Positions 1,029 through 7,018 of a stretch of 64,000 nt of DNA are shown piece by piece (position 1 is the stretch's first letter; each line of letters starts with the position of its first letter). Source of the DNA: Salinisphaera sp. Q1T1-3 (GTDB taxonomy: Bacteria; Pseudomonadota; Gammaproteobacteria; Nevskiales; Salinisphaeraceae). The DNA lies in the NCBI RefSeq assembly GCF_003602005.1, contig NZ_QZWD01000014.1, positions 1 through 64,000 of the forward strand. Direction: 5' to 3'. Made by a program: the position numbers and the translations under genes. The notes under the pieces are model-generated. The model did not search any database and was not told the DNA's origin. It was given only the letters and a program-made list of their open reading frames with translations.

Positions 1029-1102
1029 ACCTAACGCCCAAGCTCAGTTGCCGCCCAAAGCGCGGCAGCGCTTTGGGCGGCAACTGCAGTGCCCAGTTAG
1101 AT
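1029..1102 (-). repeat. attC site 1
   Basis: Read on the minus strand the site opens with ATCTAAC (matches RYYYAAC) and closes with GTTAGGT (matches GTTRRRY). In between is a near-perfect palindrome made of CAGTTGCCGCCCAAAGCGC and its complement. It follows the stop codon of the 1103-2041 gene directly, so it is that cassette's attC. This is the clearest attC in the window. Confidence 0.88.
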
Positions 1103-2041
1103 TCACCACAGTGATCTTTGAGCATCCTCTTCAAGAGGCGTTACCCGCTTGATTATCAAAGTTGGTCGACGAGCTGTAACAAAACGCTTATCGCCTAAGC
1201 GAGAGACTTCCCCGTAAAGCAGACATCGTAAGAAGAGCACCGGTTTAAAGCGCACAATACTTCCCTCTTCTGGATAGCAATTAAGAACGTGGCCAGCGTA
1301 TTCGAACCCCAATGAGTTTGTTGACGCATTACCACGTGTCAAGCGCCCTTCTAATTCCACTTCTTGACCATGCTCAAGCTCCGGAAATAAAAAGTCTCCT
1401 TCGTTATCAGGAGACTCCTCACCGACGAAAGCAGCCTTATCATTTAAATCGACTTGCTCTTCAATAACTTTACCGTTTTCGATTGTACCTACTATTAGCG
1501 TTCTTTCGCGCTCAACGACTTCCACAAGCTTGCGCAAAAGCCCAGGAGAAGCAGATAAATACCACTTAACATAAGTAGCCGGAAAGTATTCGAATTCGCC
1601 TCGTGAATTCCGTATCCCAATTTCAGTGTTGTCTTCTCGCCAACGGACGTTATCTAAATCCCATCCGCTTGTGCGGCGGGTATGCTTAACCAGACGCACA
1701 AGATGCCTTATAGCCTTCAGCGAACTTTGGAACACATCTTTAAACCCAACACCTCCAAAATCTCTCTCGGCCATCTTTTTTCCAGCAGTGCCGAAATATG
1801 CAGCGGCGAACATACTAGCGCCCGCGATAACGATCGCTTCCCAAGAGCCTTCTTCAACACGGACGGGCACCTCGTACGGAGATTTCGCAAGCTTTGATGA
1901 TTGCTTAGCGTTAAAGAAACGGAGAGCGTCATCCAGTCCAGTAAGTGCTTGCCCCGCTTTTCCCGCATCTAGAATTCCCGGCAAAACCGACTCGCCTCGG
2001 TATTTTATGAAGCCTACCTCTTCGCCCTCGACTTCGGACAT
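1103..2041 (-). CDS. Unknown cassette-encoded protein with one hydrophobic segment
   Basis: 312 residues with an ATG start preceded by an AGGGGAG ribosome binding site. I do not recognise the family. A hydrophobic, glycine/alanine-rich stretch near residues 67-87 (AIVIAGASMFAAAYFG) could be a membrane segment or buried helix. Downstream it is mixed alpha/beta with an acidic patch around 210-225, and the last hundred residues look like a small beta-rich domain. The stop codon abuts attC site 1, so it is a complete cassette gene. Its AT content is visibly higher than that of the chromosomal genes to the right, consistent with lateral transfer. No function is assigned; the neighbouring Abi_C gene only hints at defence. 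Confidence 0.7.
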   Translation of the reverse strand: MSEVEGEEVGFIKYRGESVLPGILDAGKAGQALTGLDDALRFFNAKQSSKLAKSPYEVPVRVEEGSWEAIVIAGASMFAAAYFGTAGKKMAERDFGGVGFKDVFQSSLKAIRHLVRLVKHTRRTSGWDLDNVRWREDNTEIGIRNSRGEFEYFPATYVKWYLSASPGLLRKLVEVVERERTLIVGTIENGKVIEEQVDLNDKAAFVGEESPDNEGDFLFPELEHGQEVELEGRLTRGNASTNSLGFEYAGHVLNCYPEEGSIVRFKPVLFLRCLLYGEVSRLGDKRFVTARRPTLIIKRVTPLEEDAQRSLW

Positions 2042-3411: not shown

Positions 3412-3514
3412 CAATAACGCCTAAGCTCAGCCGCCGCCGGAGCGGCCGGAGGCCGCGGAGGGAACCCAAAACGCGCCAGCGTTTTGGGCGGTCGGCTGCA
3501 GCGACTCGTTGTAC
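3412..3514 (-). repeat. attC site 3
   Basis: A long attC (103 bp), closely similar to sites 4, 5, 7 and 10. Minus-strand outer core is GTACAAC and the closing core is GTTATTG, both relaxed versions of the consensus. The inner palindrome pairs GCAGCCGACCGCC with GGCGGCGGCTGAGC, with an internal ACGCTGG / CCAGCGT-like hairpin. It is the 3' site of the first repeated ORF-less cassette. Confidence 0.75.
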
Positions 3515-3757
3515 GTGAACTCCACTATTTGACGCTCCCCCGAACTTGCCTGCGGACCACGAAGCCCGACGCCCCGAAAGAAAGAATTGCCCGAACTCAA
3601 ACTTACCGCGGATGATCGCTGACGGGAAGGCGCCGGCATGGATCGACGCCATTGAGCCCGGAGCTAGCGAGCAACGAGAAATACGGGCCAAGGCTCAGCT
3701 ACTGGCTCGACTTCGCTAGCCGACGCAACAGCTGGACCACAACACAAACCCACCGCC
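3515..3757 (-). repeat. ORF-less repeated cassette body, copy 1
   Basis: A roughly 243-bp sequence found five times in this array, each time with an attC on its left. It shares long identical stretches with the other copies, for example ACTCCACTATTTGACGCTC and the segment around GGAAGGCGCCG. Small reading frames occur but shift between copies through 1-3 base indels, so no protein is conserved. Belongs to the subtype with ATGATCGCTGACGGG, with copies 3 and 4. Confidence 0.8.
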
Positions 3758-3860
3758 GTACAACGCCGAAGCTCAGCCGCCGCCGGAGCAGCCGCAGGCT
3801 GCGGAGGGAACCCATAACGCGCCAGCGTTTTGGGCGGTCGGCTGCAGCGACTCGTTGTAC
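3758..3860 (-). repeat. attC site 4
   Basis: A 103-bp attC with relaxed cores GTACAAC at both ends on the minus strand and the same inner palindrome as site 3. It ends the second repeated ORF-less cassette. Confidence 0.75.
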
Positions 3861-4104
3861 GTGAACTCCACCATTTGACGCTCCCCCAGCTTGCCTGCGG
3901 ACCACAAAGCCCGACGCGCCTAAAGTAAAGAATTGCCCGAACTCGAACTTACCGCGGATGCTTACTGATGGGAAGGCGCAGACATGGATCGACGGCCGCT
4001 GAGCCTGGAACTAGCGAGCAACGAGAAAGACGGGCCAAGGCTCGGCTACCAGCTCGCCTTCGCTAGCCGACGCAACAACTCGACCGCAACACAAACTAAC
4101 CGCC
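3861..4104 (-). repeat. ORF-less repeated cassette body, copy 2
   Basis: Second copy of the repeated sequence. It carries the variant GGATGCTTACTGATGGG where copies 1, 3 and 4 have GGATGATCGCTGACGGG, and shares this variant with copy 5, so at least two sub-lineages exist. No conserved reading frame. Confidence 0.8.
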
Positions 4105-4207
4105 GTACAACGCCTAAGCTCAGTTGCCGCCGGAGCAGCCGAAAGCTGCGAAGGGACCCCGAAGCGCGGCAGCGCTGTGGGCGGTCAACTGCAGCGACCC
4201 GTTGGAC
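4105..4207 (-). repeat. attC site 5
   Basis: A 103-bp attC. The right core GTTGGAC (plus strand) fits GTTRRRY exactly; the left core GTACAAC is relaxed. The inner arms TCAGTTGCCGCC / GGCGGTCAACTG pair. It ends the third repeated ORF-less cassette. Confidence 0.78.
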
Positions 4208-4448
4208 GTGAACTCCACTATTTGACGCTCCCCCAACTTCCCTGCGGACCACAAGGCACGACGCGCCGAAAGAAAGAATCCCCGAACTCGAACTTACCGC
4301 GGATGATCGCTGACGGGAAGGCGCCGACATGGATCGACGCCATTGAGCCCGGAGCTAGCGAGCAACGAGGAAGACGGGCCAAGGCTCAGCTACTGGCTCG
4401 ACTTCGCTAGCCGACGCAACAGCTCGACCGCAACACAAACTAACCGCC
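4208..4448 (-). repeat. ORF-less repeated cassette body, copy 3
   Basis: Third copy, directly next to copies 1 and 2 apart from the attC sites, so 3412-4448 is a run of three near-identical cassettes. Small indels relative to copy 1 near AGAAAGAATCCCC change all frames. Confidence 0.8.
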
Positions 4449-4523
4449 GTACAACGCCGAAGCTCAGTTGCCGGCCGAAGCGCGACAGCGCTTTGGACGG
4501 TCAACTGCAGCGATTTGTTATGT
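4449..4523 (-). repeat. attC site 6
   Basis: A 75-bp attC. Left core GTACAAC and right core GTTATGT (plus strand) are relaxed. The arms CTCAGTTGCCGGCC and GGACGGTCAACTGCAG pair around GCGACAGCGC. It follows the stop of the 4528-5037 gene by four bases. Confidence 0.75.
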
Positions 4524-4527
4524 AAAC

Positions 4528-5037
4528 CTATCTCAAAGCAATTTGCCACGTAAATTCTTGACCGGCATTTCTAAGTTCGACGTCCCACCGCTTGCATATT
4601 TTTTTTGAGAAAAAAGGGAGCCTAAATTCGTACTTCAGTTTTAAAACGTAATCGCAAGAGCTTAGATTGGAGCCAGGTGGTACGCCAACGTGCGGACATG
4701 CCGGAAGTTCCATCCGTTCGCCGGCGGCTAGCTTTGCGGTTGGGATGCCGCAATCCGTAGCCGCCATATTCGACATGTTCATCCCGCCCATTACAAAATT
4801 CATTCGCTCTACGTCCGCAATTACTCGAAAAGCTGGAAGACGGCCAATATTCTCTACTTGAAGGCGGGACTCAAAGTTGAATTGCCCTTTATCCTTTATC
4901 TCGGCTATCGCCAGATTGGGTGGTAGCGCGTAGTAGGCCGTGACGAAGCCCATTAGCCCCAACAATGACGTTGCACCTAATATTTTGAGCAGAAAGAGGG
5001 AATATTCGATAAAGGTGCTTACGTACTCCTCTCCCAT
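4528..5037 (-). CDS. Small membrane-anchored cassette protein, unknown
   Basis: 169 residues from the ATG at 5037, which has a GGGAG element about ten bases upstream; a GTG one codon earlier is also possible. A single hydrophobic helix lies at about residues 14-38 (LFLLKILGATSLLGLMGFVTAYYAL). The rest is a soluble domain with beta-rich character and three or four cysteines (DCGIP, PACPH, SSCDY), suggesting a disulfide-bonded domain outside the membrane or a metal site. It looks like a membrane-tethered periplasmic or cytoplasmic domain protein. I recognise no family. AT-rich and ended by attC site 6, so it is a cassette gene. Confidence 0.65.
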   Translation of the reverse strand: MGEEYVSTFIEYSLFLLKILGATSLLGLMGFVTAYYALPPNLAIAEIKDKGQFNFESRLQVENIGRLPAFRVIADVERMNFVMGGMNMSNMAATDCGIPTAKLAAGERMELPACPHVGVPPGSNLSSCDYVLKLKYEFRLPFFSKKICKRWDVELRNAGQEFTWQIALR

Positions 5038-5072
5038 CACCGGGCTCCCGAGAATTCACAGCTAGCAATAAT

Positions 5073-5175
5073 ACATAACGCCGAAGCTCAGTTGCCGCCG
5101 GAGCGGCCGGAGGCCGCGGAGGGAACCCAAAACGCGCCAGCGTTTTGGGCGGTCGGCTGCAGCGACTCGTTGTAA
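5073..5175 (-). repeat. attC site 7
   Basis: A 103-bp attC nearly identical to site 3, with relaxed cores ACATAAC on the left and GTTGTAA on the right (plus strand). It ends the fourth repeated ORF-less cassette. Confidence 0.72.
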
Positions 5176-5420
5176 GTGAACTCCACTATTTGACGCTCCC
5201 CCACCTTGCCTGCGGACCACGAAGCCCGACGCGCCGAAAGAAAGAATCCCCCCGCACTCGAACTTACCGCGGATGATCGCTGACGGGAAGGCGCCGGCAT
5301 GGATCGATAGCCATTCAGCCCGGAACTAGCGAGCCACCAAAAAAGACGGGCCAAGGCCCAGCTACTGGCTCGACCTTGCTAGCCAATGCCAGAGTTCGAC
5401 CACAACACAAACCCACCGCC
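5176..5420 (-). repeat. ORF-less repeated cassette body, copy 4
   Basis: Fourth copy, separated from copies 1-3 by the membrane-protein cassette. It has its own indels (CCCCCCGCACTCG, ATAGCCATTCAGCCC), again incompatible with a conserved protein. Belongs to the ATGATCGCTGACGGG subtype. Confidence 0.8.
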
Positions 5421-5495
5421 GTACAACGCCGTAGCTCAGTTGCCGCCAGAAGCGCGCCAGCGCTTTCGGCGGTCAACCGCAGCGACCAGTTAGGC
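5421..5495 (-). repeat. attC site 8
   Basis: A 75-bp attC. The right core GTTAGGC (plus strand) fits the consensus and overlaps the stop codon of the 5490-5972 gene. The arms CAGTTGCCGCCAGAAGCGC and GCGCTTTCGGCGGTCAAC pair. Confidence 0.82.
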
Positions 5496-5972
5496 CTCCC
5501 GTGCTAGACGTTTGCATTCATTTAATACCTCTTTGAGGCAATCTTCGACTTCCATTGCGCGATAAGCGTAGGCCGTAGTCGCGTAAAAGTGGTCGCTCAC
5601 ATCGATTTCGACATCGCCGGTTGTTGTGAGAAGAGCCCGATGCGCCAACTCGTCGCGAAAGCTTTTAAGCTCTTTTATCTTCGGCGTAAGGGCGTTCTCG
5701 GGGCTTAGCTTTCTCAGCCGTTTGAGCAATATGCCCAGTGGGGCTTCTTCCAGCCCATCTGTCACTGTATTCCGAATCTGGTCGTCTCCCAGCGACGACG
5801 CAAGTAACGCAATGTACTTTTTCAGCCCAAACTCGAGGAGCTGAAATCGCCCAAGCGCTATCAAAACAACACCTTCATACTTTTCCCGAACCGACTCAGG
5901 ACTATGAGACTCGGAAATTTTCTGATCAAGATAGCTCTCAAGGTCTTTTTTAAAATCTTCGTAATCTGCCAT
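5490..5972 (-). CDS. HEPN-like cassette protein with RX4H motif
   Basis: 160 residues, predicted almost entirely alpha-helical. Residues around 105-115 read SFRDELAHRA, matching the R-x4-H motif of HEPN-type RNases in toxin-antitoxin and abortive infection systems. The helix before it (LLEFGLKKYIALLASSLG) resembles the first HEPN helix, which carries the conserved hydrophobic core. Function as an RNA-cutting toxin is inferred from the motif; no partner nucleotidyltransferase is next to it. ATG start; the TAA stop sits inside the attC site 8 core. Cassette gene, AT-richer than the chromosome. Confidence 0.68.
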   Translation of the reverse strand: MADYEDFKKDLESYLDQKISESHSPESVREKYEGVVLIALGRFQLLEFGLKKYIALLASSLGDDQIRNTVTDGLEEAPLGILLKRLRKLSPENALTPKIKELKSFRDELAHRALLTTTGDVEIDVSDHFYATTAYAYRAMEVEDCLKEVLNECKRLAREA

Positions 5973-5987
5973 ATCTAAATCTTTTTG

Positions 5988-6047
5988 GCCTAACGCTCAG
6001 CATCAGCGGCGGCGCGCAGCGCCGTCAGCTGCATGCTGTTGTTAGGT
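5988..6047 (-). repeat. attC site 9
   Basis: A short 60-bp attC with good cores on both sides: GCCTAAC on the left and GTTAGGT on the right (plus strand). The arms CAGCGGCGGCGCG / GCGCCGTCAGCTG are imperfectly complementary. The right core overlaps the stop of the 6042-6560 gene. Confidence 0.82.
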
Positions 6048-6560
6048 GGCATGTTCAGTGGACCAACGCCGCCATGCGTTTTGGAACCGGGCGACCACAT
6101 CAGGAAGCACTCCTTTTTCGAGAGATAGGGTAGCGGCCGGATCGAGCGACACGAGTTCGCCTAGCAGACTAAAGAAAGCCTCGAGCTCATTTGAACCCCA
6201 GGCGGGCCCGATTCGGTAGTCGAGAGCTAGCTGCCCCGGGAACACGAAGACGCCCAGGTCGGGGACAGCAATGCCCCGGGACTGGATTCCACCGAGAACC
6301 ACGTGAAACGCCTCGGCCTCGCCGGAGGCGACGAGCGCGGCGGCATTGGAGACAAAGTCCAGCGAGACTTCGGCGTCATGGGTCTTTGACCAGAAATAGG
6401 CCTTGTCGCTGACAACTCCAGCGGCTCGGCCACGAAGCAGCGCGTATCCGGCGACCGTGGCTGCTGAGTCCCGGTAGTCGACACGAATCTCGGGAAGCGA
6501 GCCGTCGTCGGTATCGAAGAGGTTGCGAAGCTCGTTCCAAAGCCACGGGGTCAAGTTCAC
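6042..6560 (-). CDS. Unknown small cassette protein
   Basis: 172 residues, GTG start at 6560, only three bases from the preceding attC core, so there is little room for a ribosome binding site (GGCGGC is the only purine-rich stretch). The protein is acidic with no signal or membrane segment. It contains a repeating beta/alpha pattern, with ALDYRIGPAWGSNELEAFFSLL in the middle, which may fit small single-domain immunity proteins or phage-type proteins, but I recognise no family. Its GC content is closer to that of the chromosome than the other cassettes. It ends in the attC site 9 core. Confidence 0.6.
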   Translation of the reverse strand: MNLTPWLWNELRNLFDTDDGSLPEIRVDYRDSAATVAGYALLRGRAAGVVSDKAYFWSKTHDAEVSLDFVSNAAALVASGEAEAFHVVLGGIQSRGIAVPDLGVFVFPGQLALDYRIGPAWGSNELEAFFSLLGELVSLDPAATLSLEKGVLPDVVARFQNAWRRWSTEHAT

Positions 6561-6563
6561 GCC

Positions 6564-6666
6564 GCCTAACGCCGAAGCTCAGCCGCCGCCGGAGCGGCCG
6601 TAGGCCGCGGAGGGAACCCAAAGCGCGCCAGCGTTTTGGGCGGTCGGCTGCAGCGACTCGTTGTAC
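6564..6666 (-). repeat. attC site 10
   Basis: A 103-bp attC of the same subtype as sites 3, 4 and 7. The left core GCCTAAC is consensus and the right core GTTGTAC relaxed (plus strand). It ends the fifth repeated ORF-less cassette. Confidence 0.78.
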
Positions 6667-6911
6667 GTGAGCTGCACCATTTGACGCTCCCCCCAACTTG
6701 CCAGCGGACCACAAAGCCCGACGCGCCGAAAGAAAGAATTCCCCCGAACTCGAACTTACCGCGGATGCTTACTGATGGGAAGGCGCCGACATGGATCGAC
6801 GGCCACTGAGCCGGAAACTAGCGAGCAACGAGAAAGACGGGCCAAGGCTCGGCTACCGGCTCGCCTTCGCTAGCCGACGCAACAGCTCGACCACAACACA
6901 AACCAACCGCC
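6667..6911 (-). repeat. ORF-less repeated cassette body, copy 5
   Basis: Fifth copy, at the right-hand (attI-proximal) end of the recognisable array. It carries the GGATGCTTACTGATGGG variant shared with copy 2. No conserved reading frame. Confidence 0.8.
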
Positions 6912-7018
6912 GTACAACGCCAAGTATACGGCTGAAACTAGGTATAGCATTGCTGAGCTTTTTCGTATAGCAACACTGCCATACCGCCGTGCAAGGCACG
7001 GCAGCTGGCAGGCGTTAG
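6912..7018 (-). repeat. Possible degenerate attC or attI remnant
   Basis: The plus strand runs from GTACAACGCC to GGCGTTAGCT, whose inner AACGCC / GGCGTT pair like attC arms; a strong hairpin GCCGTGC-AAG-GCACGGC lies inside. The rest does not resemble the other attC sites. It sits where attI of an integron would be expected, but there is no integrase gene beside it. Confidence 0.35.

Follow-up and report, generated by a model that had tools for sequence, protein, structure and literature searches.

A 346-base gene-less integron cassette that recurs within an array and among genomes of Salinisphaera

Five copies of a gene-less cassette in one array

We analysed a window of 64,000 nucleotides at the start of a contig of Salinisphaera sp. 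Q1T1-3 (NZ_QZWD01000014.1, positions 1 to 64,000). Bases 1 to ~6917 of this window belong to a minus-strand array of integron cassettes, in which coding cassettes are interspersed with a gene-less cassette that we will refer to as type A. Type A is present five times in the window, always on the minus strand, and each unit consists of a body of ~245 bp followed by an attC recombination site of ~100 bp. This part of the array, with the lengths of the open reading frames (ORFs) in its coding cassettes, is laid out as follows:

3418 to 3763, minus strand: type A copy 1 (body ~3515-3763, attC ~3418-3514)
3764 to 4110, minus strand: type A copy 2
4111 to 4454, minus strand: type A copy 3
4455 to 5078, minus strand: coding cassette with a 170-aa ORF, separating copies 3 and 4
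5079 to 5426, minus strand: type A copy 4
5427 to 6569, minus strand: two coding cassettes with ORFs of 160 and 172 aa, separating copies 4 and 5 and joined by the parser
6570 to 6917, minus strand: type A copy 5, the first cassette of the array
~6918 to 6973, minus strand: attI-like site at the head of the array

All five copies were delimited by a sequence model (R1) together with a cassette parse; copy 1, which belongs to the training set of the model, scored 309.6 bits with it. An attC near 5990-6045 was overlooked by the parser and identified by eye. When copy 1 was used as a query, the other four window copies matched at E values of 2e-142 to 6e-134, which excludes chance. A first-pass annotation made from the sequence had described five copies of one cassette with bodies starting at 3515, 3861, 4208, 5176 and 6667, divided into two sub-types and keeping no protein, and all of this was recovered: copies 1, 3 and 4 carry ATGATCGCTGACGGG and copies 2 and 5 carry ATGCTTACTGATGGG, no frame is common to all five, and the longest ORFs (44-88 aa) lie in different frames. 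Copies 1-3 adjoin one another in tandem, and the cassettes of the array share the single orientation expected in an integron. The attC length of 75-103 bp given in that annotation was corrected: in our own parse all five copies share a single long attC type, 93 bp counted from the AAC box, and the shorter sites of 52-65 bp belong to neighbouring cassettes.

Over 57 bp (6917-6973) the attI-like site shares 91% identity with the attI that adjoins the only intI of the genome, on contig C6. A genome search found no intI on the rest of the window's contig, and in the 6 kb beyond the attI-like site matches to four IntI proteins were no stronger than E 0.16; the array, which has an attI-like site and lies on a contig that starts inside it, may be a cluster of attC sites lacking integron-integrases (CALIN). 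Genes resembling lolD and lolC, named from a reading of their translations, lie beyond the attI-like site. In another part of the array (1046-1109, minus strand) an attC site matched the Rfam 'sar' antisense RNA at 33.5 bits, short of the gathering score of 43, probably because of the attC hairpin.

The type A family and the relationships among its copies

When the arrays of other genomes were searched, as the first-pass annotation had proposed, type A was found in 6 of 14 Salinisphaera genomes, in 21 full copies: eight in the window's genome (three further copies lie on other contigs), six in S. japonica, three in NP40, two in S. shabanensis and one each in genomes G003 and G006. Total length is 344-349 bp in 20 of the 21 copies, and apart from a single 12-bp deletion the gaps among them are of one or two bases. 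Every copy begins at its 5' end with TTGTAC (21/21), the R'' box reads GTACAAC in 15 copies and is one base off in the remaining 6, and the attC measures 93 bp in each of the 19 copies that were parsed at standard length, with compensatory changes in its stem. Type A thus has the 3' attC and complementary R'' and R' boxes of an integron cassette and, with several copies per array and full-length homologs in related species, the properties of a paralogous non-coding family. Its copies are shared among species, and their relations are non-clonal.

Incomplete pieces lacking an attC were also found, one where the S. shabanensis array ends and one between repeats on contig C38 of S. japonica. At the latter locus (G013:C38 5900-6600) the remnant of a type A body lies just past an attI-like site, and the two repeat copies that flank it (..GGGGTCAGGTCTTGCATTGCCACATTT..) look like small repeats inserted in the cassette. 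Kushneria, which belongs to another order than Salinisphaera, holds a third piece: in Kushneria aurantia (L049 1980-3944) the first ~75 bp of type A, again without attC, directly follow a coding cassette with a Salinisphaera-like attC, so that cassette exchange reaches outside the genus. From a reading of the DNA, the protein of this neighbouring cassette seems to resemble a GFA-family enzyme.

Wider searches returned little of the body. The copy 1 body had no match in the 47 genomes outside the genus (61 genomes searched), and none was found in plasmid and phage collections; a 23-base pattern was not found in viral contigs. A model of body plus attC matched 20 of 85 genomes of the order under strict filters, namely all 14 Salinisphaera genomes, mostly through attC, and six outside the genus; among the matches listed, one of these six has coordinates, which are attC positions only. 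Translated comparison (tblastx) of type A with other cassettes gave, among the matches listed, A-derived cassettes only. A pattern match in Nonomuraea was set aside, as inspection by eye showed no similarity outside the pattern.

The high nucleotide identity noted in the first pass holds within the window (83.7-93.3% between bodies) and not family-wide: all 210 pairs of the 21 bodies range from 54.5 to 93.3%, and because no pair is near-identical, no copy is a fresh duplicate. Forcing the five window copies into one clade worsened the log-likelihood by 33.9 and was rejected by the approximately unbiased test (p-AU 0.0127). In the tree, where support is weak for most branches (4 of 18 starred), the window copies interleave with those of other species. 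The copy nearest to copy 4 is one from S. shabanensis, and the tree joins copy 1 to the G006 copy (support 90/89), though the body most identical to that of copy 1 is copy 3's (93.2%). Copies 2 and 5 pair with each other (98/95) and their bodies are 93.3% identical. The expectation that more than simple local duplication was at work is borne out by this ceiling on identity, the interleaving and the spread over six genomes. Recent duplication is accordingly rejected as the sole cause, and an older duplication within the genome is possible for the pairs 2/5 and 1/3.

Identity also differs between the two halves of the body. Copies G013_C27a and b are 98% identical in the 5' part and 88% in the 3' part, and copies C27b and c 57% and 87%, which suggests recombination between type A copies.

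Possible roles of the cassette body

We tentatively favour the reading that type A is a promoter or cis-regulatory cassette, spread by integrase and exchanged horizontally. In one study, gene-less Vibrionaceae cassettes of 491-666 bp mostly carry sense promoters whose activity was measured (PMC11014356). The promoter reading ranks first because of this precedent, because the body keeps its length, and because a component of use in every array would explain why these families alone recur; coding cassettes turn over while type A and a second family, type B (below), recur, as expected of such a part. Each unit is a complete cassette in which attC alone can be recognised. The single IntI of the genome (contig C6), or the integrase of another host, may excise such cassettes as circles and insert them at attI-like or attC sites; they would have passed from one Salinisphaera species to another and probably recombined among themselves. 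By analogy with Vibrio, the body could be a cis-acting promoter or spacer that enables the transcription of cassettes distant from the main promoter.

Several results weigh against this reading. The promoter signal proposed in the first pass did not appear in the computed scores: sigma-70 matches in type A lay below the shuffle mean on both strands (mean z -0.53 and -0.76, 19 copies), and a promoter scan of the window found 1 promoter-like site against 1.0 expected. Three promoters are not needed by a tandem A-A-A. The intI-linked array of S. shabanensis consists of attI, A, A and a truncated A, after which no other cassette was recognised before the contig end; a promoter there would serve no cassette, which favours regarding the body as a passenger. 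Substitution rates in the body are 2-4x those of attC and nearly uniform (gamma shape ~2 in the body vs 0.37 in attC). Finally, a candidate signal of site-specific constraint, at positions that do not vary among distant copies (Fisher p 0.0004), was lost when columns with shared alleles were left out (p 0.43) or counted as invariant (p 1.0).

Two candidate elements were rejected. A sigma-70-like TTCCC(G/A)-N17-TAAGTT scored best on the sense strand in 12 of 19 copies (14 if a TTTCCG variant is counted) and is weak, below the shuffle mean. A terminator-like hairpin, TGGGCCTTGGCCCGTCTTTTTT, in copy 4 was weaker in copies 2 and 5 and was not called in copies 1 and 3, with 6 sites in the region against 5.3 expected.

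Nearly equal to the promoter reading is the possibility that type A is a selfish or passive passenger, in which attC alone is selected, the body is near-neutral filler, perhaps left over from an old gene, and spread is due to integrase and transfer. The slow evolution of attC and its strong rate variation fit this alternative (tree length 0.84-0.97, against 3.1-3.4 for the 5' half of the body and 2.0-2.1 for the 3' half), as do the lack of a protein-family, RNA or promoter signal in the body, the shared alleles that account for the apparent constraint, and the unequal identity of body halves. It fits less well with the near-constant length of the body and its few large indels over 21 full copies, despite divergence of up to ~45%. 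Neutral DNA so diverged is expected to carry more large indels, an argument weakened by the fact that deletions removing attC would not survive as cassettes. Rate-variation models also fit the whole body better than uniform rates (27 log units), and the 252 body columns include 51 invariant ones, which are mildly clumped (p 0.025; longest run p 0.064). The slower divergence of the 3' half relative to the 5' half likewise counts in favour of selection on the body. Furthermore, the attC length class of type A occurs in 23 of 76 non-A cassettes, so attC length alone cannot account for its recurrence.

The proposal that the cassette is preserved through a selected function fared poorly, given bodies as little as 54.5% identical, near-uniform rates, no covariation and no sigma-70 signal, and the fixed length with few large indels is left as the main hint of function. 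Judged by its rates, the body behaves as weakly constrained DNA adjoining a constrained recombination site.

An unlikely third explanation is that the body is transcribed as a regulatory small RNA (sRNA). It has a precedent in the sRNA-Xcc1 of Xanthomonas cassettes (described in PMC12444791), and full-length similarity in several species would agree with it. Conserved structure, which is not obligatory for every sRNA, was not found in type A. Among 100 column shuffles, 83 (sense) and 56 (antisense) folded as well as the body alignment in RNAalifold; single-sequence fold energies resembled those of shuffles (mean z -0.18 sense, 0.25 antisense, 21 copies), with one of the five window segments reaching z -1.92 when folded alone; and Rfam gave no match inside type A cassettes at E up to 5. 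Compensatory changes in the body, anticipated in the first pass, showed no clear excess: candidate helices at columns 141-237 contained four compensatory pairs, which 50 of 500 shuffles matched, and their covariation score was matched by 124 of 500. Unstructured sRNAs lie outside these tests.

Less probable still is that a short protein is, or was until recent decay, encoded by a small frame. The 19 standard copies contain ORFs of 38-90 aa (114-270 bp), so that most fail the strict length rule for non-coding cassettes of Vibrio (no ORF >150 bp and no protein-level match; Boucher et al., 2006, PMC1382264). In 6 of the 21 copies (C5_3515, G006, G013_C7b and three of G002) one particular sense frame runs uninterrupted for 70-90 aa, starting at a start codon and reaching into attC. 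The ratio of nonsynonymous to synonymous polymorphism (pN/pS) was 0.44 for one sense frame in the ungapped block at columns 132-174, where 9 of 200 column shuffles were as low for that frame, and 0.57 for a sense frame at columns 191-228 (29 of 200). Tested over all six frames, neither block stood out (ratios as low arose in 32 and 105 of 200 shuffles). The two low-ratio frames, if joined, would form one ancestral frame, which is continuous in 5 of 21 copies, and the frame open in six copies has a pN/pS of 1.54 in the first block. Every long frame is interrupted by one-base indels between copies, and none stays open in every copy; four candidate frames (some of the strings hand-made composites) had no match in Pfam or NCBIfam. 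The low ratios in frames that would join make an old gene a possible origin of the type A body.

Least probable of all is the null explanation of recent tandem or segmental duplication inside one array, which the tandem copies 1-3 and the close pairs 2/5 and 1/3 would suit and which the identity ceiling of 93.3%, the rejected single clade (p-AU 0.013) and the alliances of copies 4 and 1 with S. shabanensis and G006 copies in a weakly supported tree contradict.

Recurrence across arrays, related cassettes and array leaders

We assessed recurrence in arrays selected by their intI, a sample unbiased by type A (12 genomes, 71 parsed cassettes, 57 families). Types A and B were the sole families with more than two members, with 10 and 5 cassettes respectively, next to one family of 2 and 54 singletons. 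A wider inventory of 95 cassettes, biased because it includes segments picked for carrying type A, held 21 type A cassettes (one a remnant and one joined), 7 type B, three families of 2 and 61 singletons. In both samples the attC finder overlooks some sites, so that some cassettes are joined, and contigs end within arrays.

Type B cassettes are ~430-467 bp long, and seven matches were found in 5 of 14 genomes:

G000:C6:81430-81857, type B match
G013:C38:20732-21196, type B match
G013:C38:21546-22010, type B match
G013:C7:73075-73541, type B match
G003:C1:362326-362772, type B match
G012:C16:2527-2961, type B match
G005:C1:41122-41556, type B match

In the window's genome and in G012, type B is the first cassette after the integrase-linked attI. 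Its longest ORFs span 71-123 aa, and four protein matches of 27-38 aa between them link 5 of the 7 members; because short matches of this kind can also be produced by similar DNA, type B is only probably gene-less. Its 3' part is strongly conserved, and all members share an invariant TTTGCTATC, which we take to resemble an extended -10 element. Sigma-70 scores of type B were not above those of shuffles (mean z 0.12 sense, -0.33 antisense). It is conceivable, and we hold it tentatively, that A and B are resident genus-specific elements, either selfish with only attC under selection or regulatory parts, and the sole cassettes that persist and recur amid the turnover of coding cassettes. If so, the genus, in which a single integrase is accompanied by numerous attI-headed arrays, would be a compact test system for gene-less cassettes as parasites versus control parts of integrons.

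Gene-less cassette families have been described before, in Vibrio, and what is new here is their presence in Salinisphaera. A literature search for Salinisphaera and integrons returned only a bat-resistome paper, and by title no Salinisphaera study of ORF-less, non-coding or gene-less cassettes. The paralogous non-coding cassettes of Vibrio have homologs in other vibrios and reach 45 copies in V. vulnificus CMCP6; the explanations put forward for them in 2006 included gene conversion, selfishness and a promoter or RNA function (PMC1382264). Type A is likewise non-coding, with several copies per array and full-length homologs that were found in congeners and not outside the group; the likeness is one of description, and type A differs in genus, in the wide divergence of its bodies and in the truncated Kushneria copy outside the genus. 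With the Vibrionaceae promoter cassettes (PMC11014356) type A shares an attC and the absence of an annotated gene, and it differs from them in being shorter; promoter activity was measured for the Vibrionaceae cassettes. Oral metagenome cassettes from Treponema also have no identifiable ORF and were active with a reporter (PMC6557892); they come from another host group. The sRNA-Xcc1 cassette resembles type A in being widespread with non-coding content, and differs in being accompanied by symE and read against the array (PMC12444791), while type A has no structured RNA signal. Whether such cassettes are parasites or regulators of integrons was asked for Vibrio in 2006 (PMC1382264) and partly answered by promoter assays (PMC11014356). 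The 21 copies of type A and 7 of type B provide a small comparable set for assays of promoters, transcripts and recombination of gene-less cassettes outside Vibrio.

The genomes carry one intI each in 12 of 14 Salinisphaera, with none found in the other two. A search for attI-like leaders, made independently of type A, gave 20 + 31 pattern matches, of which 50 of 51 had a locus that was examined (the window's own site at 6918-6973 and G000:C58:2446-2464 are examples). Twelve of these loci have intI upstream, 20 have none within <=1.5 kb upstream and an attC-like site downstream, and 18 have neither; many of the last group are chance matches. One integrase may serve several attI-headed arrays. 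The search lends no support to a special position of type A at array heads: it stands first at 5 of the 50 loci and type B at 2. A pattern in which orphan attI arrays always start with type A (4 of 4, one with a remnant, vs 2 of 12 with intI) was discarded, as those loci had been found via type A.

A third leader class is palindromic (GATATATAGATATGGAT...) and has intI upstream at none of its nine loci:

G002:C8:46994, palindromic leader
G000:C58:2446, palindromic leader
G007:C1:837211, palindromic leader
G007:C1:1707568, palindromic leader
G005:C7, palindromic leader
G005:C41, palindromic leader
G009:C68, palindromic leader
G006:C232, palindromic leader
G001:C68, palindromic leader

Two proteins preceding this leader (sequences partly hand-filled) had no match in Pfam. 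At 8 of the 9 loci a stop codon precedes the crossover by 51 bases, and in 7 of these it closes a frame ending in ..GDI, with a longer tail (..GGRW...) common to some of them; the class could represent a gene whose 3' flank serves as attI.

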